In this document: piece by piece, positions 27,528 through 44,988 of the stretch
Layout of the letters: the number at the start of each line of letters is the position of its first letter
How positions within the stretch are numbered: the stretch's first letter is position 1
Origin: Elusimicrobiota bacterium
Lineage (GTDB): Bacteria > Elusimicrobiota > Elusimicrobia > UBA1565 > UBA9628
Direction of reading: 5' to 3'
Assembly: GCA_026388095.1 (NCBI GenBank)
Contig: JAPLKL010000045.1
Span: 1-64,000 of the forward strand
Length of the DNA stretch: 64,000 nucleotides
Position numbers and translations under genes: made by a program
Notes under the pieces: generated by a model
Seen by the model: only the letters and a program-made list of their open reading frames with translations
Database searches by the model: none
What the model was told of the DNA's origin: nothing

Positions 27528-30053
27528 TCAGCGGCGCAAGCCCTGGGCGTGGACGAACCGGGCCAGGGCCGCGCAGACTTCCGCCCCATCCTGGTTGTCC
27601 ACGGCGATGTTGAGCCCCCGGCTGAGCAGGAGGCCGGTGTTCGGCAAGTCGCTGATGACCCGGGCTTCCAGGCCGTAGACGCGCTTCATCTGCGCGTTGA
27701 TCCGGATGTCGATGGGCAGCAGCCCCACGGACGCCGCCGCCAGGGCCGCCGCCAGCTCCGCGGCGGAGAACGGGGCGGTCTCCTTCACGATGGCGGTGAA
27801 GCTCTCCGCGTCGGCGCTGAACTGCGCGTGCAGTTCCGGGAGCGTCAAGAGGTCCGGATAGGAGGCGCAGAAGGCCCGCAACTCCGCGACGGCCGCCTTG
27901 CGCCGCTTGGCCGCGTCGCCTAGACCGCGGCTGGCCTCCAAAGCCAAAGAGAGCCCCAGCGCCGTCACCGGCGCGGGATGATGCAGGATGAAAGGGAGGT
28001 TGTCGGGCCTGGGGGCCTTCTGGGCGAAGATATCGCCCAGCTCCGGCCGGGCCAGAGCCAGGGCCCAGGTCTCCGGGGAGTCGGACGGTCCGCCCGTGGA
28101 GCCGCAGCCGACGTCTCCCCAGGTCCCGACCATCCGGGTTCCGCACCGGCAGCCCAGATAATGCGGCGCGCACTCTATGAGCAGCAGCTTATGCTCGTCG
28201 CAGAAGGCGCGCAGGCGCTCCAGGTCCGGGGTGCCGCCGGCCAGGCAGGTCGCCAGAACGGCCCGGCTCGCCGGGCCTAGGGCTTTTTTCAGCTGCGACA
28301 GGCCCAGGTTGTAGGTGGCCGGGTCCAGGTCCACGAAGACCGGGACCAGACCGAAGGCGGGCAGATAGCCTGCGATCGGCATGTTGGCCGCGGTCGTGAT
28401 GACTTCGTCTCCCGGACGCAGCCGGGGGCCGGAGGCCGGGGCCGTCAGCTGGCAGAGAAGGAAAAGGAACGCGTCGTTGAACGACCCGCAGACGTCGAGC
28501 GGGCCGGTGTGGCGCAGGGCCGCGGGCCAGGCCCGGAGGACCTCCTCCTCGATCGGTTGGCGGCGCAGGCCCCGCAGCGTGGAGGCGACATCCGCCGGCT
28601 TGCCGGCCGCCGCCAAGGAGGGCGCCTCCGGCGCGGCCGCAGCGACCTCGGCCAGCGTCTGCTGCCAGTCGGCCCGGAGCCCTTCGATACGGTCCGCGAG
28701 CTGGCCCACGGCGTGGTCGAGCTTCTTGACGAAGTCGGTCGAGCGCTGCTCCCATTCCGAATCCAGCGAGGCCTTCTGTCTGCTCCCGTTCTGCAGCCAG
28801 GAGCTTTGGATGCCCTCGATCTCCCCGGTGAGGCGGGCGACCGCTTCGTCGAGCTTCTTGGCGAAGGCGGCCGAGCGCTCCTCCCAATGCGCGTCCAGGA
28901 AGACGGTCTGCCCTTGGGTCAGCTTCTCGGCCGCGGTCTTCAGCCCCGCGAGTCGGAGTTCTTCGAGCCGGTCCGCGAGCTGTCCCATGGCATGGTCGAA
29001 TCTCTTGAGCAAGGCGGCTGAAGTGCCGGCCTTGAAAGCCTCCAGCCGGTCCGTGATCTCTCCGACGGCCTGGTCGAGCCGCTGCGACAGATCTGCGGAC
29101 TGGTCCGCGCGGTCGCGCTTGAGTTCCGCCCGCACCCCGTCGCGGATCTCTTCGAGGAGAGCGTCCGGGTCAGCGACGGGCGGCAGGACCGGAGCGGGGG
29201 ATGGGACCGGAGCGGGCGGCAGGACCGCGGCGGGCGCCAGGGCGGGCTCAGCCTGGGGCGGCTCGGCCCGGCGCATCAGCGGGCGCGGCTCCGGCGACGC
29301 CCCGCCGCATTCCTTGACGAAGAGTCGGATGGCCTCGGTCGTGTCGCCCAGGAAGGCGGTCCGGCCCGCGTTGAGGTAGAGGGTCCGCGGGCAAAGCCGG
29401 TCGATGAGCTGGAGGCTGTGCGAGACGATGAGCAAGGTCTTGCCTTGCTTCTGGAAATCCCGGAAAACGGAGAGGCATTTGTCTTGGAAGGCGCCGTCGC
29501 CCACCGCGAGCTTCTCATCGACCAGGATGATGTCGAGGTCGCCGTGGATGGCGACGGAAAAAGCGACGCGGGCGGCGAGCCCGGTGGAGAGCTCCCCGAA
29601 CTTCGCGTAGAGATAGTCGTGCAGCTTGGAGAAGTCGAGCATGGCCGGCAGCCGCGCCGCGAAGACCTCCGGCGGCATCCCCAGGAGGGCCGCGCACAGG
29701 GACATGTTCTCGCGGACCGTCAGCTGGGATTGCAGGCCTTCGTCAAGCCCGAAGAACTGATCGGTCTTGCCCGAGACCTCAAGGCGGCCTTCGCTCGGAG
29801 CGAGTATGCGGGCCAGCAGGAGCAGCAAGGTGCTCTTCCCGGCGCCGTTGGGGCCGATGATGCCCAAAGTCTCGCCGCGGTTCACCTCGAGGTCGAGGTG
29901 GCGCAGCGCCCAGAGGACGCGGCGGGACCCCGCGCCCGTGAGCAGGCGGTGGGTCGTCTCCAGGGAGCTCTCTTTTTCCGCCTTGCTGCCGATGAGAAAG
30001 CTCTTGGCGAGCCCCTGGGCCCGGATGACGACGTCGGCGCTCGGCTCGGGCAT
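27528..30053 (-). CDS. Wzt-like ABC exporter ATPase fused to coiled coil and DegT-type pseudo-aminotransferase
   Basis: 841 aa from ATG 30053, 2 nt after the permease stop. Residues about 1-250 are a polysaccharide-exporter ATPase: Walker A GPNGAGKST (67-75), a signature-like LSTGLAARVAF and Walker B IILVDEKLAVGD. A Pro/Ala-rich linker follows. A predicted coiled coil then contains four repeats of the type (R/K)-x-D-x-A-x-G-x-L-x-D-R-x-E. The last 330 residues resemble DegT/DnrJ/EryC1 sugar aminotransferases (PRLRPGDEVITTAANMP, PVFVDLDPATYNLG, VGTWGDVGCGSTGG). The PLP Lys region (usually T-K-N/H) is absent, so that domain is probably a binder. The usual Wzt carbohydrate-binding domain is missing. 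Confidence 0.8.
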   Translation of the reverse strand: MPEPSADVVIRAQGLAKSFLIGSKAEKESSLETTHRLLTGAGSRRVLWALRHLDLEVNRGETLGIIGPNGAGKSTLLLLLARILAPSEGRLEVSGKTDQFFGLDEGLQSQLTVRENMSLCAALLGMPPEVFAARLPAMLDFSKLHDYLYAKFGELSTGLAARVAFSVAIHGDLDIILVDEKLAVGDGAFQDKCLSVFRDFQKQGKTLLIVSHSLQLIDRLCPRTLYLNAGRTAFLGDTTEAIRLFVKECGGASPEPRPLMRRAEPPQAEPALAPAAVLPPAPVPSPAPVLPPVADPDALLEEIRDGVRAELKRDRADQSADLSQRLDQAVGEITDRLEAFKAGTSAALLKRFDHAMGQLADRLEELRLAGLKTAAEKLTQGQTVFLDAHWEERSAAFAKKLDEAVARLTGEIEGIQSSWLQNGSRQKASLDSEWEQRSTDFVKKLDHAVGQLADRIEGLRADWQQTLAEVAAAAPEAPSLAAAGKPADVASTLRGLRRQPIEEEVLRAWPAALRHTGPLDVCGSFNDAFLFLLCQLTAPASGPRLRPGDEVITTAANMPIAGYLPAFGLVPVFVDLDPATYNLGLSQLKKALGPASRAVLATCLAGGTPDLERLRAFCDEHKLLLIECAPHYLGCRCGTRMVGTWGDVGCGSTGGPSDSPETWALALARPELGDIFAQKAPRPDNLPFILHHPAPVTALGLSLALEASRGLGDAAKRRKAAVAELRAFCASYPDLLTLPELHAQFSADAESFTAIVKETAPFSAAELAAALAAASVGLLPIDIRINAQMKRVYGLEARVISDLPNTGLLLSRGLNIAVDNQDGAEVCAALARFVHAQGLRR

Positions 30054-30055: not shown

Positions 30056-30835
30056 TCAGGGCTCCATCATCCGGTCCACGATGTGATATTCGAACCGGCG
30101 TATCAGGTAGAACCCGACCGCGCACAGGAGCAGTCCGACCAGGAGCGGCGCCCCGAAGGCAGGCCAGAGCTGGATCTTCCCGTCTATGAGGCAGCCTCGG
30201 GCGGCGATGAGGATCTGGGTGATGGGGTTGTAGAGCAGGATCGTCCGTTTGCCCTCGCTGATGATGGAGAGTGGGTAGAAGACCGGGGTGACATAGAAGA
30301 GGGCCATGGTCAGCACTTCCCAGATCCTCTCCATGTCCCGGTATTCGGCCGCGATCAGGGGCAGGAAGAAGGAAATCCCGGTGACGAACAGGAGCTGAAC
30401 CGCGATGACGAAGGGCAGGAACAGCCAGGTGACCCGCGGCGGCACACCCAAGGCGAGGATGAAGACCATGAGGAGGGCCAGCTCCACCACGAACGGGATC
30501 AGGGCGGAGCCAATCGTCGAGAACAGGATGATTTCGCGAGGGAATTTGTAGTTCTTGATGAGCGAGCGGCGCCGCGAGAAGCCGGTGAGCGCCATGGAGG
30601 TCGTCCGCTGGAAGAAGTTCCACAGGACCAGGCCGATGAGCAGGTAGGCCGCGTACTGGTCCACGAATTTGCCCATCCAGCGCACGAAAAGGACGTACAG
30701 GACGATGAACATGAGCAGGGGGGAGAGCAGGGTCCAGATGAAGCCCAGGACGGTGCCCTGCTCGCGCAGCTTGAATTCGACCCAGGTCAGCTCGCGCAAC
30801 AGGCGCCAGAAGGCCGGCATGCTGGCTCGGTCCAT
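30056..30835 (-). CDS. ABC-2 polysaccharide/lipid exporter permease, Wzm-like
   Basis: 259 aa with an N-terminal amphipathic region (LLRELTWVEFKLREQGTVLGFIWTLLSPLLMF) and six membrane segments. The block FYVTPVFYPLSIISEGKRTILLYNPITQIL is typical of Wzm/TagG/KpsM-type permeases. It pairs with the ATPase fusion encoded 2 nt downstream. Substrates in this family are undecaprenyl-linked O-antigens, teichoic acids or capsules, so a surface glycan is the likely cargo. ATG 30835 is 7 nt downstream of a TAGTAT box that is duplicated at 32544. Confidence 0.85.
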   Translation of the reverse strand: MDRASMPAFWRLLRELTWVEFKLREQGTVLGFIWTLLSPLLMFIVLYVLFVRWMGKFVDQYAAYLLIGLVLWNFFQRTTSMALTGFSRRRSLIKNYKFPREIILFSTIGSALIPFVVELALLMVFILALGVPPRVTWLFLPFVIAVQLLFVTGISFFLPLIAAEYRDMERIWEVLTMALFYVTPVFYPLSIISEGKRTILLYNPITQILIAARGCLIDGKIQLWPAFGAPLLVGLLLCAVGFYLIRRFEYHIVDRMMEP

Positions 30836-32622: not shown

Positions 32623-33498
32623 ATGAGCTCGTCCGGGCACATGCACTGGAACATCACGGACTGGTGCGATTACCACTGTTCCTATTGCTGCGAGGGACGC
32701 TCGGACCCGCCAGCCCAGCGGGGCGGAGCCAAGCGCTTCATCGACGAGGACATGCTGGCCGCGGGCCTGGCCTTCCTTTCCGGACTGCCGCGGCCCTGGA
32801 CGGTGCGGCTGAGTTCCGGCGAGCCTTCCGCCCATCCGGACCTGCTCTCGCTCGTCCGCAGGATTTGCGCCTTGGGCCACAGTGTGGCCATGGAGACGAA
32901 TCTGTCCTTCCCGCTGGAGCGCTATCTTGGTTTCCTGGGCGCCGCCGGCGGCCAGTTGGCATACCTGCACGCCAGCCTGCACTTGGATGAGGCCGACCCG
33001 GAGGCCTTCCTGGGGAAATGCCTGCGCTTGCGGGAGTCCCTGCTCGCGGAGGGGATCGAGGCCAGGCTCCAGGTCTCGACCGTGGCGCGTCCGGAACGCC
33101 TGGAACAGATCGAGCGGCTGGCCGCCCGTCTGCGGGAGCAGGGCCTCACTTTGATCCTGCAACCCTGCTACGACAGGCGCCGGCGCGCCTTCCTCCCGAT
33201 GCCTCCGCCGGGCAGCCCGCTCGCGGCACTATGCAGCCGGGAAGGCACCGTGGAATTCAATCAGGAGGCGGGCGGCCCCCGGGGGCGCCTCTGCGCCGCC
33301 GGCCTGCGCTGGCTCCTGCTCGACTTCGCCGGCGACTTGTGGCGCTGCCAAGCCGCGCTCAGAAAGGAGAAGGCTTCCTTGCGGCCCGAGTCTCAGGGAT
33401 TCCTAGGGAACGTGCGCCGGGGCGGGGTGAGGTTATTCAAGGAGCCGGGACCCTGTCCCTATGACTGCTGTCTATGCCCTGGCCGGGCCATAGAATAA
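32623..33498 (+). CDS. Radical SAM protein convergent with the small-peptide operon
   Basis: 291 aa. The cluster motif is DWCDYHCSYC (Cys15, 19, 22), followed by RLSSGEPSAHPDL, corresponding to the GGEP strand. The C-terminal region has several Cys (RLCAAGLRW, DLWRCQAAL, GPCPYDCCLC), like SPASM/twitch auxiliary-cluster segments. It lacks the full YPxxYT motif of its relatives. Its stop codon is 30 nt from the convergent end of the 38-aa peptide gene. It might be a peptide-modifying enzyme for that precursor, but only proximity supports this. Confidence 0.75.
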   Translation: MSSSGHMHWNITDWCDYHCSYCCEGRSDPPAQRGGAKRFIDEDMLAAGLAFLSGLPRPWTVRLSSGEPSAHPDLLSLVRRICALGHSVAMETNLSFPLERYLGFLGAAGGQLAYLHASLHLDEADPEAFLGKCLRLRESLLAEGIEARLQVSTVARPERLEQIERLAARLREQGLTLILQPCYDRRRRAFLPMPPPGSPLAALCSREGTVEFNQEAGGPRGRLCAAGLRWLLLDFAGDLWRCQAALRKEKASLRPESQGFLGNVRRGGVRLFKEPGPCPYDCCLCPGRAIE

Positions 33499-33528
33499 AG
33501 AAGCCTCGGCCTGGTCCGCGTCCACGGC

Positions 33529-33645
33529 TCAGTAGCTGTGAGCGAGAGCGGTCTTGGAAAGCTCACCATGGCGGGTGAGCCGCGGCTTGGAGTACTTCTT
33601 CCTCTTGGCATTCTTGCCGGCAGAGAGGCGGGTCTTCTTTGCCAT
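33529..33645 (-). CDS. 38-aa basic peptide with lasso-type leader motif, candidate RiPP precursor
   Basis: A 38-residue frame runs from ATG 33645 to TGA 33529. The first 20 residues are rich in Lys and Arg. The region Y18-x2-P21-x-L23-x3-G27-x-L29-x2-T32 closely follows the leader recognised by the PqqD-like RRE of lasso-peptide systems (Y-x2-P-x-L-x3-G, then Thr), with one residue fewer before Thr. Only six residues (ALAHSY) follow, too few for a lasso ring and tail. The final product is therefore either a very short peptide or a tag, or the gene is degenerate. It is the last gene of an operon encoding a PqqD-like protein, an HPr-kinase-like protein and four glycosyltransferases. Start codon spacing to the restored kinase stop is 13 nt. 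No strong ribosome site is seen. Confidence 0.6.
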   Translation of the reverse strand: MAKKTRLSAGKNAKRKKYSKPRLTRHGELSKTALAHSY

Positions 33646-33658
33646 CTTAAGGGTTAGT

Positions 33659-33843
33659 TTAACATCCTCTGTCCCGCTGGTCAAGGGCCTTTGGGCCCGC
33701 CAAGAAGGCCGCCAAGGCGGCCACGTTCGCCTTGGGATCGTCGCCTAGAGAAAAGCGCAAGAGGCGGGCTTGGCGCAGGATGCCGATGGCGGTCCGCGCC
33801 CGCGAGAGCGCGATCCCCGCCAAAGTGCGGGCCCCGACCCGAC
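33659..33843 (-). other. Out-of-frame C-terminal tail of the HPr-kinase-like gene
   Basis: In the frame shifted from the main kinase frame, this segment encodes VGARTLAGIALSRARTA followed by a further C-terminal stretch ending at TAA 33659. The sequence joins sensibly to ...MLRADLVG of the kinase. A tandem duplication CCGAC-CCGAC (33834-33843, plus strand) sits at the junction. Removing one copy restores a continuous kinase of the expected length. Confidence 0.65.
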
Positions 33844-34689
33844 GAGGTCCGCGCGCAGCATGTATTCCGACATCTGGGCGATGCCCGAGCCCACGACCAG
33901 GTGGACCGCCAGCGCGCCCGCGGCGCGCAGCCGGGAGGCGGGCTCTATGCGGGGAGCGGCTCCGGGCCGGCGCTCCCCGATGAGGATCCAGGCCACGGGC
34001 ACTCCGCCGCGCACGCGCTCCCGGAAGAATCCCAGGTCCACCAGGCGCTTGATCCCGTAGCGCAGACGGCGCATGCTGCGCAGCCATTTCTCGGGCACGT
34101 CGCGGAGCTCGGTGGCGGGGGCGAAGCCCAGCCGCAGGGGGAAGGCCATCAGCCGGAGGTCGTCGGCGATCAGGGGGGTGTCGTCGGAGACCAGGCCCAG
34201 GTCGGTCGCGCGGAGCAGCTCCAGGGCGGTGGTGCTCTTGCCCGCCCCCGAAGGCAGCAGCAGAAGGCCGCCCCGCTCGCCGCAAGTGAAGCCCAGGGCA
34301 TGGATTCGGTGCCAGCCTTTGAGGTCCAGCGCCTCCCCCGCGCGCGAGAGCACCGCCAGGAGGGCCAGCTCGTGCAGCCGTTCCGGATCCGGGCAGAGTA
34401 TCCTGCCGTGCTTGGCCGCGTAGTCGTATTCGGCACGGGCCTCGTCGGCATAGACGATGAGGCGTATTCCGGAGCGGTCGAAGACCGCGTAGTCTTTGGT
34501 CCGGAAGAGAGGCCGGCCTTCGGGGGAACGCTCCGGCAGGCGCGGCTCCAGCTCGATATGGATGGCTCCCTCGGCCGGGAAGGGCAGGAAGAAGTACTCG
34601 AAGTCCCGGCGCAGGTCGTCCAGGACCTCGGCCGGGCCTCCGCTCAGGGTCACGGGCACGCCGTGGATGTCCAGGTTGAGCTCGGTCAT
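33745..34689 (-). CDS. HPr-kinase-like protein, C-terminus frameshifted
   Basis: As written the frame gives 314 aa, but only the first ~280 are native. A non-homologous Arg/Ser-rich tail follows a 5-bp tandem duplication at 33834-33843. The conserved core is a P-loop LLLLPSGAGKSTTALELL and a downstream LVSDDTPLI, the Walker A and Asp pair of HprK/PEP-carboxykinase-like kinases. Homologs in some lasso-peptide clusters (ThcoK, PadeK) phosphorylate a C-terminal Ser of the precursor. The peptide encoded next ends in Ser-Tyr. The gene starts 4 nt inside the GT2 gene. Whether the frameshift is real, phase-variable or a sequencing error is open. Confidence 0.75.
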   Translation of the reverse strand: MTELNLDIHGVPVTLSGGPAEVLDDLRRDFEYFFLPFPAEGAIHIELEPRLPERSPEGRPLFRTKDYAVFDRSGIRLIVYADEARAEYDYAAKHGRILCPDPERLHELALLAVLSRAGEALDLKGWHRIHALGFTCGERGGLLLLPSGAGKSTTALELLRATDLGLVSDDTPLIADDLRLMAFPLRLGFAPATELRDVPEKWLRSMRRLRYGIKRLVDLGFFRERVRGGVPVAWILIGERRPGAAPRIEPASRLRAAGALAVHLVVGSGIAQMSEYMLRADLVGSGPALWRGSRSRGRGPPSASCAKPASCAFL

Positions 34690-35678
34690 GGCTTGGCGGG
34701 GGCGCCCGTGGACAGAAGCAGGCCGCGCAGCATGCCCAGGGCGTAGGAGAGATGGCCCAGCGGCATCAGCAGAAGGAACCAGGCGGCGGCAGCCGGACGA
34801 CGCGTCCGCCAGAGCAGGCGCAGGGCCGCGGCGAGGCAGACCCCCGCGTATAGCGCCGGGGGAGCCCAGGATGCCAGCGTCCTCGGCCCCAGCGCCAGGA
34901 ACACGAGGTAGGCCAGCCCGGCGGGCGGCAGCAAGGTCACCGGCTGCAAGGAGCCGGGGGCCATGCGGGTGATCTGCATGCGCCCGGCTCCGCTTTGGAA
35001 AGCCTGATGGCAGAACCCGGGTATGTCCCCGCGGCGGACATGATAGACATGGAGCTCCGGGCTGAACAGGCCGGGCCCGCGGCGCTGCTCCGCGTGGTAG
35101 AGCAGGAGGTTCTCCTCGGCGCTCACGCAGGATTCGGGGAAGGCCAGCCCGTCCTCGCTGAAGACCCGGCGCCGCACCCCGAGATTGCAGAGCATGAAGC
35201 CCCAGGACGACAGCAGACGGTCTTCACCCCCGGCAGCGTAGCGGACGCGCATGGGGCCCGCTCCCCAGGCCGAGCTGAGGACCGCGTCCGCGGCGAGCTG
35301 GAACGCGGTGGGCTCGGGCGCCCCCAGGTTCGGGCCGCCGGCGTAGCAGACCTCGGGATGCCGGGCGAATTTCTCCAGGACCCGCCCGCAGAATCCGGGC
35401 GGGACGACCACGTCGTCGTCGAGGAAGTACAGGATCTCGCCCCGGGCCCGCCCTACGGCCAGGTTGCGGGCCGCGCCCCGCGACGAGCGCGCGGCGTCCA
35501 GCACGGTCGCCAGCGGCCAGCGCGAGGCCAGCTCTTCGCGCAGGCCCGCGCCGGCTGGCCCGAGGCCGTTGAGGAGCACGACGACCTCGGCCTCGGAGCC
35601 TGGCGAGACGTCGAGGCTCTCCAGGCAGCGCCGCAGCAGCTCCGGCCGGTGGCTGATGATGATGAGGCTCAGCCGCAT
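34686..35678 (-). CDS. GT2 family glycosyltransferase with C-terminal membrane helices
   Basis: 330 aa. The GT-A fold starts with LSLIIISHRPELLRRCLESL. SSRGAARNLAVGRARGEILYFLDDDVVVP contains the DxD motif. CVSAEENLL is in the acceptor-side ED position. Residues about 245-325 contain two or three hydrophobic segments, so it is probably anchored at the inner membrane. It overlaps the GT4 gene by 10 nt upstream and the kinase by 4 nt downstream. It is one of four glycosyltransferases in the operon with the small peptide. Confidence 0.85.
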   Translation of the reverse strand: MRLSLIIISHRPELLRRCLESLDVSPGSEAEVVVLLNGLGPAGAGLREELASRWPLATVLDAARSSRGAARNLAVGRARGEILYFLDDDVVVPPGFCGRVLEKFARHPEVCYAGGPNLGAPEPTAFQLAADAVLSSAWGAGPMRVRYAAGGEDRLLSSWGFMLCNLGVRRRVFSEDGLAFPESCVSAEENLLLYHAEQRRGPGLFSPELHVYHVRRGDIPGFCHQAFQSGAGRMQITRMAPGSLQPVTLLPPAGLAYLVFLALGPRTLASWAPPALYAGVCLAAALRLLWRTRRPAAAAWFLLLMPLGHLSYALGMLRGLLLSTGAPAKP

Positions 35679-36688
35679 GGCCGCTCCTTGCCGTCCTTGT
35701 AGAGGCGGGCGTACTCGCGCGCGCGCTTCTGCCAGAGCGCGCCTTGCGCCATGCGGCGCCCGGCCGTGGCCAAGCGCAGGCGCAAGGCCGGGTCCGACCA
35801 GAGGTGCCGCAGGCCGCGCTCCAGGGCCGCGACGTCGCCGGGCGGCACGAGCCAGGCCTCCCGGCCGTGGCGCAGCTGCCGGGCGGCCATGCCGGTGCGC
35901 GTGGTCAGGACCGGCGCGCCCCCGGCCAAAGCCTCCAGCACCGCCATGCCGTAGGTCTCGCGGCGCGAGGCAGAGACGAAGACCCTGGCCTTGGCCAAGG
36001 CCGCGCGCAGGGGCGCGGCGGCTGCGGCCTTGGTGAAGCGCACGCGGCCGCGCAGGCCCAGGCGCAGGGCCAGGTCCTGGAAGCGGCCATTTTGGAAATC
36101 CTGCCCAAAGACGAGCAGGCGGGCTCGCGGCTCCTGGCGGAGCAACCCGCAGAAGGCCCAGAGCAGGAGGTCAATGCCCTTGTAGGGGGCCAGCCTGGCC
36201 GCGGCCACGATGCTGTCTCCATCGCGGCGTCCGGCCGCGCGGCAGAACCACTCCCGACCCACGCCGTTGCCCACCACGGCGACCTGGCCCGCGGCCCGGG
36301 GATAGCGCCGGCCCACCGCCCGGGCCAGGTCCGGGGTCAGGGCGGTGACCCGGCTGGCGCGGGCGAGGAGGGATGCGATGTGCCGGCGCTGGACTGCGTC
36401 CGGAGCCGGCAGGTCCGGGTGGTCGAGGTCCTGGAAGGTGACCACCAGCCTGGCCCGCCTGACCGCGGCGGAGTCCAGCCAGCGGCGCGCGGCCGCACCG
36501 AGATGCCCGGAGAAATGCAGGTGCACCAGGTCGGGGCGGAAGAGCGCGAGGTCTCCGAGTCGGGAGCGCCGCGGACAGAAGCAGCGCGCCTTCCAGCCGC
36601 TGCCGCGCAGGGCCTCGGCCAGCGAGGCGAGCACCCGGCGATAGGTCGGGTCCTGCAGGGAGGTGCCGGGCAGCAGGGCGAGTCTCAT
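35669..36688 (-). CDS. GT4 family glycosyltransferase
   Basis: 339 aa from ATG 36688, overlapping the GT9 stop by 4 nt. GT-B fold: an N-terminal domain with RLALLPGTSLQDPTYRRVL and DLVHLHFSGH, and a C-terminal domain with AAARLAPYKGIDLLLWAF. The C-terminal E-x7-E-type block is SASRRETYGMAVLEALAGGAPVL, the nucleotide-sugar binding signature of GT4. It probably transfers a sugar from a nucleotide donor at the cytoplasmic face. The acceptor is unknown. Context is the operon with PqqD-like, HprK-like and RiPP-like genes. Confidence 0.85.
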   Translation of the reverse strand: MRLALLPGTSLQDPTYRRVLASLAEALRGSGWKARCFCPRRSRLGDLALFRPDLVHLHFSGHLGAAARRWLDSAAVRRARLVVTFQDLDHPDLPAPDAVQRRHIASLLARASRVTALTPDLARAVGRRYPRAAGQVAVVGNGVGREWFCRAAGRRDGDSIVAAARLAPYKGIDLLLWAFCGLLRQEPRARLLVFGQDFQNGRFQDLALRLGLRGRVRFTKAAAAAPLRAALAKARVFVSASRRETYGMAVLEALAGGAPVLTTRTGMAARQLRHGREAWLVPPGDVAALERGLRHLWSDPALRLRLATAGRRMAQGALWQKRAREYARLYKDGKERPCG

Positions 36689-37593
36689 GACCGCTCGACG
36701 ACCCCGATCCGGCCGCATTCGCGGCGCACCTGCTCGCAGACCTCGGGGACGGTGAGCGCGTCGCCTGGCGCGCGCGCGGAGCCCCGCCCATAGGCGTAGT
36801 CCTGCCAGAGCGGGCTGACCACCTTGGCGAGCCTCCCGTAGCCGTGGATCTCGGCGGGGCTGGTGCAGATGAAGAGCGCCACGGTCCGGATGCCGAGAGC
36901 CAGGGCCAGGTGCATGGTCAAGGTGTCCCCGCAGACCACCAGGTCGCAGGCCGCGATGTCCGCCAGGAACTCCTGCAGGCTGTCACGCTGCCGGAAGACC
37001 TCCACCCGCAGACCGTCCTTTTCAAGGCCGCGGGCCAGCTCGGGGAAGCCGCTCCAGCGCTTCATGGGCCAACGCTCGCTGGCCCGCCCATCGAGGCCGA
37101 TCCGCAGGGGCCGGCCCGGCCCTGGGCGCCGGGCGGCGGGGCCGATCCAGTATTCCTCGCCCCCGAACTTCCGGTCCAGCATGGCGAAGACGAGATCCTG
37201 ATAGGTGCGGTCGTTGGACCGCTTGCGGCTGTCGGCCTGGGCTTGGCCGAGGCGGGAGATCAGGCTCAGGTCGAACCAGGCCGCCGCGCTGTCCGTGTAG
37301 CGCAGGCCGCCGTCCGGACCCAGATAAGTCCCCACAAGCCGGCCGGCCTGGACCGACGAGGCCAGAGCGGCGGCCTCCCGGTCCTCATCCAGGCTCAGGA
37401 CCAAGTCGAAGCGGGTCCCGCGCAGGGCGGCGGCCTGCGCCAAGGTCAGGACCGCGGCTAGAGGTTCGCGCGGAAGCAGCGGATGGGCGGCGTGGTCGGC
37501 GACCCAGGTGATTTCCCCCGGGAGCGCGCGCAAGAGCGGGGTGGTGCGGACCACGTCGCCCAGGGCGCCGAGCTTGATGACGAGTGTGTTCAA
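36685..37593 (-). CDS. GT9 family (ADP-heptosyltransferase-like) glycosyltransferase
   Basis: 302 aa, starting with TLVIKLGALGDVVRTTPLLRAL, the hallmark N-terminus of LPS heptosyltransferases. The C-terminal half has RIGLDGRASERWPMKRWSGF and IAACDLVVCGDTLTMHLALALG, the GT9 donor-binding motif. Family members build LPS inner core or related glycans. It overlaps the PqqD-like stop by 4 nt. In this operon it may act on a dedicated acceptor rather than core LPS, which would be unusual. The exact acceptor is not inferable. Confidence 0.85.
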   Translation of the reverse strand: MNTLVIKLGALGDVVRTTPLLRALPGEITWVADHAAHPLLPREPLAAVLTLAQAAALRGTRFDLVLSLDEDREAAALASSVQAGRLVGTYLGPDGGLRYTDSAAAWFDLSLISRLGQAQADSRKRSNDRTYQDLVFAMLDRKFGGEEYWIGPAARRPGPGRPLRIGLDGRASERWPMKRWSGFPELARGLEKDGLRVEVFRQRDSLQEFLADIAACDLVVCGDTLTMHLALALGIRTVALFICTSPAEIHGYGRLAKVVSPLWQDYAYGRGSARAPGDALTVPEVCEQVRRECGRIGVVERS

Positions 37594-37859
37594 GAGGCCG
37601 GCGCCAGGAGTTTGTCGCGGAGCAGCTCTTTGAGCAGGGCGTCGGCGTAGCGGGCGACGTCGGGGGCCGCGGCGCCATACTCCTCCGCCACGAGGGAGGC
37701 CACCTTCTCGACGGGATGTCCCGCCGCCAGCAGCTCCCAGATGCGGGAGCCGGTGTCGTTGAGGGAATAGTAGACGCTGGAGTCGAGGTCCAGGACCACG
37801 ACTTCTTCGTCAACGCGCCGCCAGGCGACGTGCCCGGCGGCCTTGTAGCTCTTGTTCAT
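37590..37859 (-). CDS. PqqD-like RiPP recognition element protein
   Basis: 89 aa, the usual length of the free-standing PqqD family. It has a beta-hairpin region (HVAWRRVDEEVVVLDLDSSVYYSLNDTGSRIWELLAAG) and a C-terminal three-helix part (VASLVAEEYGAAAPDVARYADALLKELLRDKLL). Such proteins bind RiPP leader peptides and present them to modifying enzymes; in lasso systems the B1 protein binds the Y-x2-P-x-L-x3-G motif. A peptide with that motif is encoded at the end of the same operon. It starts at ATG 37859, within the 3' end of the GT2 gene (50-nt overlap). Confidence 0.85.
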   Translation of the reverse strand: MNKSYKAAGHVAWRRVDEEVVVLDLDSSVYYSLNDTGSRIWELLAAGHPVEKVASLVAEEYGAAAPDVARYADALLKELLRDKLLAPAS

Positions 37860-38655
37860 CGCGGCTCCTCCGCAGGTCCCAGCTCGCCGCGTCCGTGTCG
37901 TCGAGGGCGTGGAACACGAACTGGGACCATTTGCGCGCCAGGATCTCGCGGTTGATCCTCCGGTGATGGGAATAATCCACCCCGCGGTAGCCCATGGCGC
38001 CGTAATGGTGCACGAAGACGTCCTCGGCCAGCAGGAGCTTGTAGCCCGCCTGCCGGACGCGCAGGCAATAATCGTAGTCCTCGTAGCCGCCCGGGCCGAA
38101 GCGCTCGTCGAGGAGGCCCACGCGGTCGACCACCTCGCGCTTGACGAGCAGGCAGAACGCGATGAGCCGGTGGACCTCCCGGCTGCGGCCGGCGTGCGCC
38201 TGCGCCCAGGCCCAGGAGAACTTAGGCAGGTCCGCGGCGCCGCGATAGGAGGGGGCGCTGGCGCTTTGCAGGCCCGGAGCCGAGTTGGTCATGGGCGCCA
38301 CCAGTCCAGCCTCGTTGTCGCGCTCGGCCCAGGCGATGAGGCGGCTGAGCCACTGCGGCCCGACCACGGCGTCGGCGTTGAGCAGCACGAGGTGGCGTCC
38401 GCGCGCCGCCCGGATGCCCTGGTTGTTGCCGGCCGCGAAGAACCGGTTCTGCGCGTTGCGGATCAAGCGGATGTTCGGGCGCCGGCAGAGGCGCTCCAGG
38501 CGGCGCACGGCTGGAGCCTGGGAGGCGTTGTCCACCACGATGATCTCGTGCGGGACGTCTGTGCGGGACCGGACGCTCTCCAGGCATTCCTCGAAATAGT
38601 CCACGTCGTCGTGGGTGAGGATGATGATGCTGGCGCGGGGAGCCGTCTTGGTCAT
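37810..38655 (-). CDS. GT2 family glycosyltransferase (rhamnosyltransferase-like)
   Basis: 281 aa from ATG 38655, 21-30 nt downstream of a TATAAT-like box read on the minus strand. It begins SIIILTHDDVDYFEECLESV. The donor site has IIVVDNASQ, NQGIRAARGRHLVLLNADAVV (DxD-like NAD) and the acceptor block FGPGGYEDYDYCLRVRQAGY, typical of GT2 family enzymes such as WbbL-type rhamnosyltransferases. It is the first gene of the seven-gene operon that ends with the small peptide. It is divergent from the nucleotidyltransferase at 38698. Confidence 0.85.
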   Translation of the reverse strand: MTKTAPRASIIILTHDDVDYFEECLESVRSRTDVPHEIIVVDNASQAPAVRRLERLCRRPNIRLIRNAQNRFFAAGNNQGIRAARGRHLVLLNADAVVGPQWLSRLIAWAERDNEAGLVAPMTNSAPGLQSASAPSYRGAADLPKFSWAWAQAHAGRSREVHRLIAFCLLVKREVVDRVGLLDERFGPGGYEDYDYCLRVRQAGYKLLLAEDVFVHHYGAMGYRGVDYSHHRRINREILARKWSQFVFHALDDTDAASWDLRRSRDEQELQGRRARRLAAR

Positions 38656-38679
38656 TTCCTGTGGAGGGGACGAGTATTT

Positions 38680-38687
38680 ATTATACT
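38680..38687. promoter_or_regulatory. Divergent -10 elements for GT/RiPP operon and nucleotidyltransferase
   Basis: On the plus strand TATACT (38682-38687) lies 10 nt before ATG 38698. On the minus strand the overlapping AT-rich patch reads AGTATAATAA, with TATAAT about 25 nt before ATG 38655. The two operons probably share one promoter region. Confidence 0.5.
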
Positions 38688-38697
38688 TTTGGCACGG

Positions 38698-40248
38698 ATG
38701 GTCCTGCAAGGCTCTCTGCGACGGCTGGTCATCGCCACCAGGGGCTGGCCGCTGTTCGGGGCCGGCTACTGCGCCGCGTACGGCCTCGCGGTCCGTCTGG
38801 CGGCCTTGCTCCTGGCTCCTCTGGCCGCGCTCTATCTGCGCCGGGGTCTGAGCCGGCAGGGCCTGACGCCCGGGGTCAGCGACGTGGACCTGCTCGCGGT
38901 CCTGGACATCCCCCGGGATGGGGAGGCGGACCTTCTGCGCGGTCTTTGGCGCCGCTATCGCCTGGCCAAGAGCCTATTCCCGATGCTGGGAGAGCTGCAG
39001 GTCGCCACGAAGGATGAGCTGGCCGCGTACCTCTCCTGCGGAGGGATCCGCCGCCTAGAGGCGCCGGGCTGGCAGGTCCTCAGAGGCGGGGCTCCGCCCG
39101 CGCCCGCGCCGGCAGGGGTCGACTCGGCCCGGCTGCACCTGCACGAGGCCCTGGCCGCCTACATCTTCCTCTCCCAGACCTACTTCGAATCCGCGCGCGA
39201 GCCGCGGCTGCCGGATTTTGGGTTCCGCGTGGCCAAGGGGTTCCTGGACGTGCTGCGGCACGCTTCTGCGGCGCAGGACGGCCTGCCCACGGCCCTGGAG
39301 AGGCTCCGGGCGCGCAGCGAGCTGACCGGCTCCTTGCCGGGGGACCTGCGGCGCGGCCTGGAGCAGCCCGACCTCCTGGACCGTGACGCGGGGCTGAGGC
39401 TCTTGGGCCTGGCCCTGTCCCGCATCGACGGCCTCTGCGGCGGGCTGGCCTTGCCCGCTGCGTCCGCGCCCACGGGCCCGGCGCACAGCCCCCCGGCCAA
39501 CGCCGGCTGCGACGGCTGGCCGGCGCTGCTTTCAGCGCTCGGCCCGGGGACGGGTTTGTTCATGGATACCTTGTTCCATTGGTACGTGGTGCTGTCCGGC
39601 GCGCCCGAGCCGGAGGCGCTGCGCAAAGTCGCCGGCCTGATGGACGGCTGGCATCTGCGCGACCCGCGGTTCCAGAGCGCCGGCTGGCTGGTCACCCGGA
39701 ACGTCATGCAGGCCCTGCTTCTGGTCCCGCATCTGGACACGCCGTTCTTCGCCTGGGCCTTGGGCGGGCCGGACCGCGGTGACGGCTTGTGGGTCCGGGC
39801 GCTGAGCCGCCACCCTCTCTGGGCGGGCCATTATCGCCTGCGCTGGAAGCTGGGCGGCGGCCTGCGGCCGCCTGGCCCGGAGGAGCTGCGACGCAGCGCC
39901 CGGCAGGCCGCCTCAGAGCTGGCGCTAGCGTTGCGCATGTTCGGCCTGGGCTCCTGGGCCGGGGGCAACTCCTACCGGCTTTTCTTCCTTTATAGCCGCG
40001 TCCTGAGCCTGCGCCTCTTCCTGGAACGCGGCGTCATCGTTGACCCGCACGACATCGACGCCTTGCTCGATGCCTACGCGGAGCATTTCCCGGAGGCGCG
40101 CTCCTGGCTGGAGCGCCTGGCGGCCGAGGAGTTGCGCAGCCCGGCGGCCGAGCTGGACGCTCTGGACCCCGCCGAGCTATTCTATCGGCACCTGCCCTTC
40201 CTGCGTGCGCAGGCGGACGCGGCGCTGGCGCGGCTCTGGCCAGATTGA
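38698..40248 (+). CDS. Nucleotidyltransferase-fold protein
   Basis: 516 aa from ATG 38698; the frame is open further upstream, but that part overlaps the divergent gene and is not coding. Near residues 58-67 it has GVSDVDLLAVLD, the G-x-S-D-x-D-L motif of the Pol-beta-type nucleotidyltransferase superfamily with two metal-binding Asp. The rest is helical and not assigned. Nucleotidyltransferases occur in some lasso-peptide and polysaccharide clusters. It is divergent from the operon with PqqD-like, kinase-like and glycosyltransferase genes, so coregulation is likely. The substrate is unknown. Confidence 0.6.
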   Translation: MVLQGSLRRLVIATRGWPLFGAGYCAAYGLAVRLAALLLAPLAALYLRRGLSRQGLTPGVSDVDLLAVLDIPRDGEADLLRGLWRRYRLAKSLFPMLGELQVATKDELAAYLSCGGIRRLEAPGWQVLRGGAPPAPAPAGVDSARLHLHEALAAYIFLSQTYFESAREPRLPDFGFRVAKGFLDVLRHASAAQDGLPTALERLRARSELTGSLPGDLRRGLEQPDLLDRDAGLRLLGLALSRIDGLCGGLALPAASAPTGPAHSPPANAGCDGWPALLSALGPGTGLFMDTLFHWYVVLSGAPEPEALRKVAGLMDGWHLRDPRFQSAGWLVTRNVMQALLLVPHLDTPFFAWALGGPDRGDGLWVRALSRHPLWAGHYRLRWKLGGGLRPPGPEELRRSARQAASELALALRMFGLGSWAGGNSYRLFFLYSRVLSLRLFLERGVIVDPHDIDALLDAYAEHFPEARSWLERLAAEELRSPAAELDALDPAELFYRHLPFLRAQADAALARLWPD

Positions 40249-40785: not shown

Positions 40786-41997
40786 ATGTCTTCCGAAGAC
40801 CCGCTTGTCGCGACTACAATCAGGAACCGGCTCATCGCTTTGGGCCTCGGCGCGGCTGCCGCGCTCCTTCTGGCGCTCGCCGCGGAATGGGCCTGCGGAA
40901 TCCTTCTGCGGGCCAGGGGCCCCATCCAGTGGGGACCGCCTGCCGCCGCGGCCTCCGGCTCGGCAGCGGAGAGCCCCTACCACATCATCCTGCCTCCGCC
41001 TCCGTCCGTCATGCGCATGGACCAGGCGCGGGCCTGGTCCGTCGACGCGGGACAGATCGAGGACATCCGCATCCCGCCGGATATCGGGGAAAGGATCGGG
41101 CCCGGGCTGCTGTGGCTGCCGCACCGCTCCTTCCGGTTCATCCGGAAGACCCGGAGCGGCCGGGTCATCTGGGACCTGTCCTGCGGGATCGACGAGTTTA
41201 ACCGCAGGGATACTCCCGGCGAGAGGAGCAAGGCGCGCACCGAGCGCTTCCTCCTATTGCTCGGAGACTCCTTCATCTTCGGCGAAGGCGTGGGCCAGGA
41301 TGAGACGCTGGCCGCGGACCTGGGCCGGCAGTTGCCCTGGGCGCGGGTGTACAACTACGGCATCGGCGGCCTCTATCCCGGGGAGCTGCTGGAGCGCCTG
41401 CGCCTGGTCCAAGGCCCGCCCGAGATCCGGGAGCCCAAGGGGACGGCGCTCTATTTCTTCGCGGATTCGCACCTGCTGCGCAACATGGGCTCGCTGACCT
41501 CGGTGGGCGGCTGGGGCTACTCCAGGCCTTACTACCACGAGGACGCCAGCGGCAGGATCGCGGCCGAGCAGTACATCAAGGACGCGCGGCCCGTCTGGAC
41601 TGTCCTGGCCAAGCTCTTCGTGCGGTCCAACGTCGCGCGCTTCTTCAACGTGGACTATCCCACGCGCCCGCGCGAGGGCGACCTGCGCTTCATGGCCAAG
41701 CTCGTCGAGCAGCTGCGTGCCGAGACCGTCCGGCTCGGCGCCGAGCGCTTCTACGTCGTCTTCTATCCGAACAACTCGTATCTGGGAGGGCTGCTGCTCC
41801 CCTATCTTGAGAAGGCCTCCATCCCGGTCCTGGACCTCTCCGGCTGGGACCTCCTGCAGCTCACCCGCGGCCCGGCCTTCATCCCCGGAGAAGGCCATCC
41901 CACCGCCGAGTCGCACCGCCTGGTGGCCGACGCTCTGGCGCGCTTGCTCAGCTCGCAGCGCCCCGGCCGAAGGCCCCCACCTCGTCGAGGAACCTGA
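40786..41997 (+). CDS. Membrane-anchored SGNH hydrolase/acyltransferase-like protein
   Basis: 403 aa with an N-terminal membrane helix (LIALGLGAAAALLLALAAEW). The catalytic Ser block is FLLLLGDSFIFGEGVG (GDS at 160-162). The C-terminal His block is GEGHPTAESH, as in AlgX/PatB-like sugar O-acetyltransferases and esterases. The Asn/Gly blocks are less clear. Such proteins often add or remove acetyl groups on surface glycans. GATAAT lies 8 nt before ATG 40786. The 3' end overlaps the convergent radical SAM gene by 50 nt. Confidence 0.75.
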   Translation: MSSEDPLVATTIRNRLIALGLGAAAALLLALAAEWACGILLRARGPIQWGPPAAAASGSAAESPYHIILPPPPSVMRMDQARAWSVDAGQIEDIRIPPDIGERIGPGLLWLPHRSFRFIRKTRSGRVIWDLSCGIDEFNRRDTPGERSKARTERFLLLLGDSFIFGEGVGQDETLAADLGRQLPWARVYNYGIGGLYPGELLERLRLVQGPPEIREPKGTALYFFADSHLLRNMGSLTSVGGWGYSRPYYHEDASGRIAAEQYIKDARPVWTVLAKLFVRSNVARFFNVDYPTRPREGDLRFMAKLVEQLRAETVRLGAERFYVVFYPNNSYLGGLLLPYLEKASIPVLDLSGWDLLQLTRGPAFIPGEGHPTAESHRLVADALARLLSSQRPGRRPPPRRGT

Positions 41998-42853
41998 ACT
42001 CCGAGCAACTGCAGCTCTCGTAGGGGCAAGGCTGCGCCTGCGCGGGGAGCCGGAAGCGGGGGTCGAAGATGCTTCCCAAAGGCTTTTGCCCGAAGGCGTC
42101 CTGCCCGCAGCGGTACACCGTGCCGTCGGCCTTGACGTTCGCGTAGACCCGGCCCGCGTGGCAGAGCTTGCCCTTGGTGGAGCGGCGTTCCAGCCGGTAG
42201 CGGACCTCGTCGTCCTTGACCGAGGTGTCGTTCATCAGGGAGGCGATGCGGGCCTTCTCCTGGGGCGTGAAGGACTCCGGGTAGTCGCGGCCCTGCCAGC
42301 GGCCCTGGAAGACCATGGGCGTGAAGGGGATGCCGCGGCTCCTGAAGGCCTCGCTCCAGGCGCTCAGGCGCTCCAGGTAGGGCGGCCAGGTCACGACCAG
42401 AGCTCCTGGCTCGAATCCCCGGTCCTTGAGCCTGAGCAGCCGGGCCAGGAAATCGTCGAGGCTGGTGAAATCCGGGTGGAAGCTGGCGTTGAAATGCACC
42501 CGCTCAGGGGAGAGACGCCCCAGCAAGGCTTCGAGCCGGTCCAGGGGCAAAGCCAGGCTCGTGGTGGCCTGCACGAAGTGCAGTCCTGAAAGTCCTTCCA
42601 GGAGCTCGTCGCAGCGGGGATAGAGCAGAGGCTCGCCGCCCAGGATGTCGATGCGCACGTCCCCGTGAGCGGCCCGGATGCGCTCCCAGACCGCCAGCCA
42701 CTCCGCGGGCGGCAGGATGCGGTGCTGCTTGGCCAGCTTTTCCCAGAGTCCCTCGAGCTCCCACCAGCAGTAGGGGCAGCGGTAGCTGCAGCCGTACCAG
42801 AGGTCCCAGGTGAAGGTGACCGCCCCTTCGGAGAGCCGCCAGGCGTTGGGCAT
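41948..42853 (-). CDS. Radical SAM protein of the YPxxYT paralog family
   Basis: 301 aa from ATG 42853, sharing one base with the upstream stop (TGATG); the open frame to 42964 is an upstream artefact. The core is YGCSYRCPYC (Cys22, 26, 29), then RIDILGGEPLLYPRC. The motif is FQGRWQGRDYPESFTPQEK. C-terminal auxiliary-cluster-like Cys are GKLCHAGRVYANV, TVYRCGQ and PCPYESCSCSEFRFLDE. It is the last gene of the large radical SAM array. Like its paralogs it is about 300 aa and lacks a complete SPASM domain. The substrate is unknown. Confidence 0.8.
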   Translation of the reverse strand: MPNAWRLSEGAVTFTWDLWYGCSYRCPYCWWELEGLWEKLAKQHRILPPAEWLAVWERIRAAHGDVRIDILGGEPLLYPRCDELLEGLSGLHFVQATTSLALPLDRLEALLGRLSPERVHFNASFHPDFTSLDDFLARLLRLKDRGFEPGALVVTWPPYLERLSAWSEAFRSRGIPFTPMVFQGRWQGRDYPESFTPQEKARIASLMNDTSVKDDEVRYRLERRSTKGKLCHAGRVYANVKADGTVYRCGQDAFGQKPLGSIFDPRFRLPAQAQPCPYESCSCSEFRFLDEVGAFGRGAAS

Positions 42854-44988
42854 CAGTCCTTCCGGGCCGCGGCGAAGACATGGTCCAGGCCGGCGACGAC
42901 CTTGCGGCTGGAGAGCTCCTCGAAGCGGGTGAAGCCGGCGGACTCGAGCAGTTCGGGCAGGCATTTCTTCGTGGGCACCCAGACCGGCCGTATGATGGAA
43001 GGGGCGATGCGCTCCGGCCCCCAGAGCAAAGCGCTGCCCGGCGCGCGCTTGTCCACCAGAAGGCTCAGGAAGACCCGGTCCGCCACCGCCGCGGTCTTCT
43101 CCAGGAGCAAGGCCGGATGGGGCACGTGGTCCAGCATGTCCAGCAGGAAGGCCCAGTCGAAGCGCCGGCCCGCCAGGGCGGGTTCCTGCGCGGCCCAGTG
43201 GTCCATGACGAAGGCGTTGACGGTGCGGAAGGCGACGCCGGAGAGCCCCAGCGTCTGCTGGGCGAAATCGGCCCGGCGGATGGAGGGGGCGTCAGTGTCG
43301 ATGCCGTAGACCAACGCCGCGCCCTGGGCCTTGGCCTGGAGGGCGTGCCAGCCGTCCGAGCAGCCCACGTCGAGCACGGTCTTGCCCTTGAGCTCCAGCG
43401 GGATGCGGGCCTGGCGCTTGGGCATGGTCTTCTGGGGCACGTCCCGGCCCGGGGAATCGTCGGGGTACACGTCGCGCGTGCCCAGGCCGCGCAGCTCGAT
43501 CTGGTGGTGCCAAGGCCCCAGCATACGGATCTGGCGGGCCAGCTGGCGGCCGGGGGCGGCGCGGCCGGGCTCGGCTTCGAGGCACTCGGCGACCAGGCGG
43601 CGCAGGGCGGCCGGGTTCTTCAGGGTGCGGCGGTTGACGGCCAGGCGCGGGCCGCCCATGGAGAGCACCCTCTCGCAGAGCTCCTGGAAGCGGCGCACGC
43701 GCTCGACATAGGTGTTGCCGCCGTCGGGGGTCTGCCACTTCTCGTGCTGGGACGAGGCCAGGCTTGCGGCCAGCGGAGTGCCGGGCTGGAGCAGGGTCGT
43801 CGGCGAGGTCAGGCGCACCTCCGCGATGTCCTGCCGGCTGCGCTCCAAAAAGCCGATGGTCTCGCGCAGGTCCGCGCGGGTCTCCGCGGGCAGGCCGACC
43901 ATCACGTTGAGGGAGACGGGGATGCCGTGACTACGGCAGCTCCGCAGCACGCGCGCGGCCAGCGCGTTGCTGAAGAAGCCCTTGCGCACGGAGCGGCGCA
44001 CGCGCTCGGAGCCGCTCTCCAGGCCGGTGCCGAAGCTGTTGCAGCGGGCCCGGGACAGCTTGGCGATGAGCGCGTCGGTCATCTCCGGCCGGATGATGAA
44101 GTCCCCGCCCCAGGCCACGGGCGGCTCCGGATAGGCGGCCAGGAGACGGTCGCAGAAGGCCTCCAGGGCGGCCATGTCGCCGTTGAGCAGGCGGTCGTAG
44201 TGGCGGAAATGGACCAGGCCGGGGTGGCGCTCGTGTTGGTGCCGGTACTCGGCCAGCCAGCGTTCGGCGCTCATGGAGCGGTACTTGCGGACCGTCACCC
44301 AGTCCTGGCAGAAAGAGCAGCGCTTGGGACAGCCGCGGGACACGCTGAGGCGCGCGGTGGTTCGGTCCGAGTAGCGCTTGAAGTCGTAGTCCGAGTAGTC
44401 GAGGAAGGGCAGCTCGTCGAGGTCCTCCATGAAGGGGCCCTGGGTTGCGTCTACGACGCGGTCCTCCAGGGGAAAGCGCCGGGCCAGGGCCGCGGGCAAG
44501 GCGAGCTCGTCTTCTCCCAGGATTAGGCAGTCGAAGGGCATGACCTTCTGGCCGTAGGCGTCGCTGGCGTCCTGCTCGGCCCGCCAGCGCCGCGCCGCGT
44601 CCGGGTCAGGGCTGCTCAGGCCCGAGGCGACGAGGGGCAGGCCGGGAGCCTGGGCTTGGAGCAGGCGGGCCATGGCCGCGGCGGCGGCGTAGACGTTGCC
44701 GGCCTTGAAGACCACGGCGTCGGGCTTGCCGGCGAGTATGCCCGCCGCGTGGCGGCGCAGGCGCTGCTCCTCCAGCAGGGGGATGGCCGCGGCGGGGTCG
44801 GCGGAATGGTCGGTGAGGCGGAACTTCCAGAAGGGCCGCTGCTTGAAGGTCTCGTGGAAGAGCTCGTTGTTGACGTCGCGGACCGTGACCTCATGGCCTG
44901 CCCGCCTGAGCACGGCCGCGCACAGGGCCAGCTCCATGGGCGGGGTGTCGCGCGGCTGCGGCGGCATCTGGACGAGAGTGATTTTCAT
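42853..44988 (-). CDS. B12-type radical SAM enzyme fused to a C-terminal methyltransferase
   Basis: 711 aa. Residues about 1-200 form a cobalamin-binding-like Rossmann domain (ITLVQMPPQPRDTPPMEL..., CLILGEDEL). The radical SAM core has SRGCPKRCSFC (Cys220, 224, 227) and FGTGLESGSERV. From about residue 505 a class I SAM methyltransferase follows: LKGKTVLDVGCSDGWHALQA, with YGIDTDAPSI and DWAFLLDMLDHVPHPALLLEK. Two SAM-using domains of different chemistry on one chain are uncommon. The N-terminal two-thirds are paralogous to the 47073 protein. The gene follows the BrnTA pair and begins the last two-gene part of the array. Confidence 0.85.
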   Translation of the reverse strand: MKITLVQMPPQPRDTPPMELALCAAVLRRAGHEVTVRDVNNELFHETFKQRPFWKFRLTDHSADPAAAIPLLEEQRLRRHAAGILAGKPDAVVFKAGNVYAAAAAMARLLQAQAPGLPLVASGLSSPDPDAARRWRAEQDASDAYGQKVMPFDCLILGEDELALPAALARRFPLEDRVVDATQGPFMEDLDELPFLDYSDYDFKRYSDRTTARLSVSRGCPKRCSFCQDWVTVRKYRSMSAERWLAEYRHQHERHPGLVHFRHYDRLLNGDMAALEAFCDRLLAAYPEPPVAWGGDFIIRPEMTDALIAKLSRARCNSFGTGLESGSERVRRSVRKGFFSNALAARVLRSCRSHGIPVSLNVMVGLPAETRADLRETIGFLERSRQDIAEVRLTSPTTLLQPGTPLAASLASSQHEKWQTPDGGNTYVERVRRFQELCERVLSMGGPRLAVNRRTLKNPAALRRLVAECLEAEPGRAAPGRQLARQIRMLGPWHHQIELRGLGTRDVYPDDSPGRDVPQKTMPKRQARIPLELKGKTVLDVGCSDGWHALQAKAQGAALVYGIDTDAPSIRRADFAQQTLGLSGVAFRTVNAFVMDHWAAQEPALAGRRFDWAFLLDMLDHVPHPALLLEKTAAVADRVFLSLLVDKRAPGSALLWGPERIAPSIIRPVWVPTKKCLPELLESAGFTRFEELSSRKVVAGLDHVFAAARKD

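Follow-up and report, generated by a model that had tools for sequence, protein, structure and literature searches.

The gene cluster

The first 64,000 nucleotides of contig JAPLKL010000045.1 (here C45) from an Elusimicrobiota bacterium, referred to as the window, contain seven genes on the minus strand (38655-33529) that combine a very short peptide with a recognition protein, a kinase and four glycosyltransferases (GT). In order, they code for a GT2 glycosyltransferase (GT2a, 37810..38655; PF00535, 2.6e-24), a discrete PqqD-type recognition element (RRE) as found for ribosomally synthesized and post-translationally modified peptides (RiPPs) (37590..37859; PF05402, 1.5e-15), a GT9 heptosyltransferase-type enzyme (36685..37593; PF01075, 1e-12), a GT4 enzyme (35669..36688; PF00534, 2e-29), a second GT2 enzyme (GT2b, 34686..35678; PF00535, 6e-13), an HprK/PEPCK-fold kinase that is split by a frameshift near 33840 (33659..34689; alignments A1/A5 and AlphaFold/Foldseek, with a weak Pfam match, E=0.03) and a precursor peptide of 38 residues, MAKKTRLSAGKNAKRKKYSKPRLTRHGELSKTALAHSY (33529..33645). 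This set and order agree with a first-pass annotation of the same DNA, as do the mostly overlapping junctions (50, 4, 4, 10 and 4 nt between successive genes up to the kinase). The flanks are also oriented as annotated. A putative nucleotidyltransferase (NTase; 38698..40248, plus strand), assigned from a GxSDxD motif and from fusions in relatives, is divergent from the operon across a 42-bp gap, and a radical SAM (S-adenosylmethionine) gene (32623..33498, plus strand; PF04055, 4.7e-13) is convergent with the peptide gene, next to which it is also found in a congener (locus L190).

The most probable start codon of the peptide gene is ATG 33645 (38 aa), not TTG 33684. Directly 5' of this ATG, and inside the 3' end of the kinase gene, a promoter scan detected a sigma70-like promoter (TTGACC-17-TAAACT; 33656..33684, minus strand). 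It is the sole promoter-like site in 33400-38800, where 0.2 are expected, and it is kept in the congener, where the gene 5' of the peptide is not the kinase. Thus, the peptide gene does lie in the last position, as had been annotated, but having its own promoter, it is described too simply as the last gene of one operon.

Recurrence in Elusimicrobiota

The gene set is a recurrent, conserved system and not a chance arrangement. In a survey of 341 Elusimicrobiota genomes, in which peptides were searched by profile, the peptide was found in 42 genomes, a high-scoring RRE in 52, the kinase in 54 and a signal peptidase domain (see below) in 55; all four occur together in 33. The annotation had proposed correlated presence of the peptide and the PqqD-like gene as a check, and had named genes found apart in relatives, or an operon devoid of a peptide, as the opposite outcome. 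At the genome level, the genes stay together: the RRE is present in 41 of the 42 peptide genomes (table [[41,1],[11,288]], Fisher 1e-41) and the kinase in 39 (table [[39,15],[3,284]], p=2.8e-35), while kinase and peptidase co-occur with p=2.4e-31, related genomes being non-independent samples in these counts. In 26 of the 39 genomes having both, kinase and peptide are on one contig and then always within 9 kb. In the largest genus (g53), the 15 genomes with the kinase are the same 15 that have the peptide, and at least 13 other genomes have neither. This all-or-none pattern argues against simple shared ancestry. Those relatives of the kinase that have public names come from Elusimicrobia metagenome-assembled genomes, one of them of the same genus as the window, in line with an Elusimicrobiota host.

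These counts also bear on the view that an unrelated small open reading frame merely lies alongside an ordinary glycan operon. The peptide's own promoter and its different upstream neighbour in the congener would fit such a view, but it is highly unlikely, given that the peptide co-occurs with RRE and kinase across genomes and also inside single genera, and that its tails are conserved.

The system is devoid of lasso peptide machinery, as had been stated. The B2 leader peptidase (PF13471) does not exceed the cut-off in any of 56 genomes, and an Asn-synthase-like cyclase is absent from the window contig (this genome's own copies are on contigs C73 and C63). On these grounds, we rejected a degenerate lasso peptide cluster, which we consider extremely unlikely. 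The lasso-type RRE and leader motif would be expected from such decay, but the tails are too short for ring plus tail, and the set is conserved over many families, which does not look like decay.

Fifteen kinase genomes have no recognisable peptide. Outside the phylum, the flanks of the kinase gene in Deltaproteobacteria, Melainabacteria, Omnitrophota, Verrucomicrobia, Halobacteriovoraceae and Planctomycetota contain neither RRE nor peptide, so that a link to the peptide is supported for Elusimicrobiota only. Both observations suggest that the kinase-GT2 pair may act more broadly. At L153, L154 and L156 (Melainabacteria, Omnitrophota, Halobacteriovoraceae), the kinase is beside or near a GT2b-like gene, again with flanks devoid of RRE and peptide, and there may be an older kinase-glycosyltransferase pair outside the peptide system. 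A search of plasmid records returned no relatives, and the open-licence papers searched do not describe such a system in Elusimicrobiota.

A second, lower-scoring RRE family is common in the phylum (genomes G158-G244 and others) and occurs without this kinase or peptide. Further unstudied peptide systems are likely to exist in Elusimicrobiota.

The peptide family and its tails

The peptides have 34-51 residues, with a basic N-terminus followed, with few exceptions, by Y/W-x-[KR]P-x-[LIV]-x-x-HG-x-[LI]; the tail after HG has mostly 8-13 residues. In 1.39 Mb of related loci, there are 41 instances of the pattern [YW]..P.[LIVM]..HG.[LI] with at most 20 residues to the stop codon. Shuffled sequence of 2.8 Mb has none, and the pattern is therefore not due to chance. 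The peptide gene in the window differs from that of the congener at 7 synonymous nucleotides and in 2 codons that change the amino acid.

The tails fall into a few classes. TALA(H/R)SY is found in this genome and in G001, G008, G027 and G029. An aromatic class ends in Tyr (FSALY, FQLLY, FRTFY, FSYTY). About 15 genomes have the tail HGKISEVASAFKP and seven have HGVLSIVEGD (the LSIVEGD class); besides these, there are a few singleton tails. The tails are constant as protein though their codons vary, which indicates that selection acts on the tail. At L131:484-775, two tandem peptide genes with unlike tails, HGKITTVAGIIVRE and HGKITKVAGADDDPVR, adjoin one RRE gene. In the HGKISEVASAFKP class, a FabD/MdcH-like acyltransferase is encoded between peptide and kinase, at L112:8561-9463 and in the equivalent gap of other loci of this class; this suggests an acyl step in that class.

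When the leader Tyr is counted as residue 1, most tail classes have [AVIST] at residue 16 and [ASG] at residue 18, consistent with the -3/-1 rule of signal peptidases. In most tails, this small-x-small site is just ahead of the last 3-6 residues (HSY, FKP, FSALY). Of the 32 genomes with such tails, 31 have a signal peptidase domain, against 2 of 8 genomes with other tails (p=5e-5), under a rule that was framed after the tails had been inspected. Genomes of the LSIVEGD class are mostly without a signal peptidase domain. Their tail stops where the cleavage site would fall and has one hydroxyl residue.

RRE and kinase

The RRE family matches RREs that were solved with leader peptides, including those of lasso peptides and LppB, the RRE of the linear polyphosphorylated peptides (LPP) of Bacillota. 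PDB matches of the family profile (A7) include TbiB1 (6e-20, 74 bits), TfuB1 (3e-12), PbaB1 (1.5e-9) and LppB (1.6e-9, 41 bits). LppB binds the leader Tyr through an Asp, D70 (PMC13381572), and an Asp is found at this position in 16 of 17 family members, including the closest congener.

The kinase is assigned an HprK/PEPCK-like fold from structure prediction: the AlphaFold model of a relative's kinase (pLDDT 92) matched PEPCK (5e-8) and HPrK (1e-5) with Foldseek. The fold search was needed because a sequence search of PDB gave only P-loop matches. Alignments of the family have an invariant His, the Walker Lys and two nearly invariant Asp residues (H-K-D-D), which are the residues named for lasso-tailoring kinases (PMC9266682). 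The genome collection was scanned for the kinase with a 7-member alignment, a 16-member alignment being too diverse. In the window, the reading frame breaks near 33840 and the C-terminal 52 residues run on in another frame to 33659; this second fragment is intact in its frame (33695-33850, E=2.9e-6).

Signal peptidase domain and putative nucleotidyltransferase

A leader protease had been annotated as absent. This holds within the window, but a candidate is encoded on the same contig beyond it: an archaeal/SEC11-type signal peptidase domain (C45:79584-79877), which is part of a separate peptidase/beta-helix gene (C45:77739-79931, 14-16 kb past the window). In the family profile (A4), Ser, His and Asp are invariant, and the matches include TIGR02228, a model for archaeal signal peptidases (9e-7), as well as human SEC11A (7e-7). 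In many relatives, the domain is N-terminal in a protein of 1,000-1,900 residues that also has a beta-helix and a C-terminal NTase, and such fusions suggest that peptidase and NTase work together.

The GxSDxD motif of the NTase-like protein is conserved in 26 homologues. Pfam and PDB searches gave no match to this protein, and AlphaFold predictions for the window NTase (3 sequences; pLDDT 38) were not used.

Glycosyltransferases and sugar-tailoring genes

No other gene accompanies the kinase as constantly as GT2b, which is encoded at most 2.5 kb away in 42 of 53 kinase loci. By contrast, GT9 is within 10 kb of the kinase in only 6 of 53 loci and is thus accessory; an anchoring role for a heptose was dropped for this reason. 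Several GT4 genes occur within the loci of the system, and GT4 adjoins the peptide gene in L042, L096 and L108. A radical SAM gene abuts the RRE gene in 27 of 53 loci. In the LSIVEGD class, this is an AprD4-like enzyme (3e-48), followed, where checked, by a PseC/DesI-like aminotransferase. Loci of this class are L043, L044, L046, L048, L050, L051, L053 and L193, and the AprD4-like enzyme is a diol-dehydratase homologue.

The peptide is probably glycosylated, as suggested by the constant linkage of GT2, by the precedent of the pseudomycoidin-type NTase, which leads to a hexose on phosphorylated Ser (PMC9266682), and by the sugar-modifying enzymes of the LSIVEGD class. A glycosylated or sugar-anchored peptide had already been the working hypothesis of the first-pass annotation; it is strengthened by the tailoring enzymes beside the RRE but keeps its conditional status. 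The LSIVEGD class is the best entry point to peptide-bound sugar chemistry.

The best NCBIfam match of GT2b in the window is MftF, and 9 of 10 members match it, but with 68-73 bits against a cut-off of 280; EpsD is matched almost as widely. We set this similarity aside as generic, also as evidence for a mycofactocin- or PQQ-like system. In such a system, the last residues (often Tyr) would be converted by the radical SAM enzyme to a small redox cofactor or metabolite, which an MftF-like GT2 would glycosylate. The C-terminal Tyr of many peptides and the frequent position of a radical SAM gene next to the RRE point in this direction, but the FKP and LSIVEGD tails lack Tyr, and we know of no role for a kinase or a signal peptidase in mycofactocin biosynthesis. 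Such a pathway is unlikely.

Because the AprD4-like enzyme and the aminotransferase modify sugars, an alternative is that sugars are put together and remodelled while attached to the ribosomal peptide, which would serve as their tether. The RRE would recruit the sugar enzymes, the chemistry would consist of deoxygenation by the AprD4-like enzyme, amination by a DegT-type enzyme and chain growth by GT2/GT4, and the peptidase would free a glycan with only 3-6 residues attached. We put this forward tentatively. If true, it would be RRE-guided glycan biosynthesis, to our knowledge a use of RiPP logic not described so far. A further alternative has the peptide as a permanent carrier: sugars would be built or tailored on its tail and then passed on, and the peptide would not be the product. 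The LSIVEGD class fits such a carrier well. Its tail ends at the would-be cleavage site, is invariant in 7 genomes through varied codons and offers one hydroxyl residue, its RRE is abutted by the two sugar-tailoring genes, a peptidase is mostly missing, and there are several GT4 genes in the loci. In most tail classes, however, a peptidase is present along with a site that suits it, and basic leader-like N-termini together with an RRE are typical of RiPP precursors, so we consider a permanent carrier rather unlikely.

Transport genes and radical SAM arrays

One gene (27528..30053, minus strand; PF00005, PF01041) codes for an ABC ATPase of the kind used in polysaccharide export, which has a DegT-type sugar aminotransferase domain in the same protein. 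It lies beside the gene for an ABC-2 type permease (30056..30820, minus strand; PF01061, 1.7e-17), as is also the case at L190 and L129. The pair is a candidate exporter.

Between the operon and the signal peptidase gene, a long co-directional array (window 41948-56195, continuing at C45:64001-75351, L218) contains at least 12 radical SAM genes, some with B12-binding or SPASM domains, interspersed with genes for GDSL and TPR proteins. A comparable array of nine radical SAM genes leads directly into the RRE gene at L038.

Proposed maturation

The system combines what characterizes RiPPs: a conserved precursor with a leader motif, an RRE, and modifying enzymes that co-occur with them. From gene content, conservation, co-occurrence, domain families, the kinase fold, the peptidase active-site residues and the constancy of the tails, we infer, with moderate confidence, a RiPP-like maturation that yields an RRE-guided, kinase-phosphorylated and probably glycosylated linear peptide, released by a peptidase in most lineages. 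The RRE would bind the Y-x-KP-x-L...HG leader of the tiny basic peptide and offer its short tail to the HprK-like kinase, which would phosphorylate a hydroxyl residue; the best candidate is the Ser three positions after HG, where present. The NTase-like protein and GT2/GT4 (or GT9) would attach and then extend a sugar on the phosphorylated residue or on a hydroxyl residue. In most lineages, the archaeal/SEC11-type peptidase domain, either in one fusion protein with the beta-helix protein and the NTase or in cooperation with them, would cut after the small-x-small site. The released product would be a decorated peptide of 3-6 residues, e.g., HSY in this genome. It may be exported, possibly through the ABC-2 transporter, and we speculate that it acts as a surface glycopeptide or as a signal.

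Several points weigh against this maturation scheme, in addition to the non-independence of related genomes and the late framing of the tail rule. The system is known here from genes, and the NTase is assigned by one motif. In this genome, 44 kb separate the genes for peptidase and peptide. The window copy itself may be damaged: the frameshift in the kinase may be an assembly error or real damage, and the RRE has Tyr71 at the position of LppB D70. The phosphosite register of LPP (S3) is not conserved in the Elusimicrobiota peptides, some tails (FQLLY group) are without a candidate Ser, and the FKP core would be without a hydroxyl residue if cut as predicted.

Under the proposed scheme, the logic of phosphorylated linear peptides would extend to a phylum of which hardly any members are in culture, and the natural peptidase/beta-helix/NTase fusions would link the enzymes. 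The sugar-modifying partners make an unsolved step testable, namely the action of NTase and glycosyltransferase on a phosphopeptide, for which the invariant tails LSIVEGD and HGKISEVASAFKP are ready-made substrates. RRE-peptide recognition would also be tied to polysaccharide genes, a link that was noted but left unexplained in the Bacillota family.

Comparison with known systems

The HPr-rel-A and SynChlorMet cassettes of NCBIfam (TIGR04352/04353, TIGR04248) also have an HprK-related kinase or a PqqD-like protein in a peptide system, but the scores obtained here are far under the cut-offs and there is no matching peptide family.

Mycofactocin (PMC3023750) shares a short precursor with a C-terminal Tyr (in several tail classes), a PqqD-like binder, a radical SAM enzyme and an MftF-similar GT2. 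It differs in that the Elusimicrobiota system has a kinase, a signal peptidase and an NTase, as well as tail classes devoid of Tyr. The radical SAM matches to the mycofactocin model are below the cut-off, and the glycosyltransferase similarity is generic.

Phosphorylated or glycosylated lasso peptides (paeninodin, pseudomycoidin; PMC9266682) share the RRE, the leader motif, an HprK-like kinase with H-K-D-D and, if the NTase-like protein is assigned correctly, an NTase, which there leads to a hexose on phosphorylated Ser. The system described here has no cyclase, no B2 peptidase and no core of lasso length, and it has glycosyltransferases.

The closest resemblance in outline is to LPP, as encoded by the lpp cluster of Paenibacillus alginolyticus (Nat Commun 2026, PMC13381572). 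This cluster codes for an RRE, an HprK-like kinase, an NTP-transferase and a SipW-like peptidase; Ser residues are polyphosphorylated, there is no cyclase, and polysaccharide genes are nearby. The family was described as restricted to Bacillota, and its final product was not identified (PMC13381572). The two systems share the discrete RRE, the HprK-like kinase, the archaeal-type signal peptidase, the setting among polysaccharide genes, the lack of a cyclase and the leader spacing YxxPx[V/L]..H[Q/G]x[I/L]; the putative NTase would correspond to the NTP-transferase LppN. The gene set had been called a candidate new system in the first-pass annotation. It is indeed recurrent, but its novelty is qualified by the same core logic in LPP (PMC13381572).

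The differences are nevertheless numerous. The hosts are Elusimicrobiota rather than Bacillota, and the cores would have about 3-6 residues rather than tens (45 in LppA). The LPP precursor motif YxxPxVLxHQxIxFETxxS is not matched; HG replaces HQ, and FET and the S3 register are missing. The predicted cleavage site is small-x-small rather than T-1, the peptidase is fused to a beta-helix/NTase protein, and the candidate exporter genes nearby code for an ABC-2 permease and an ATPase, where LPP has an MsbA-like pump. There are also conserved GT2 and radical SAM partners, and the RRE scores nearer to TbiB1 than to LppB. Because precursor motif, cleavage site, core length, fusions, partners and RRE score differ, we call the Elusimicrobiota set LPP-like: by comparison of the sequences, it appears to share the same outline of working but to represent a separate lineage rather than a member of the LPP family.

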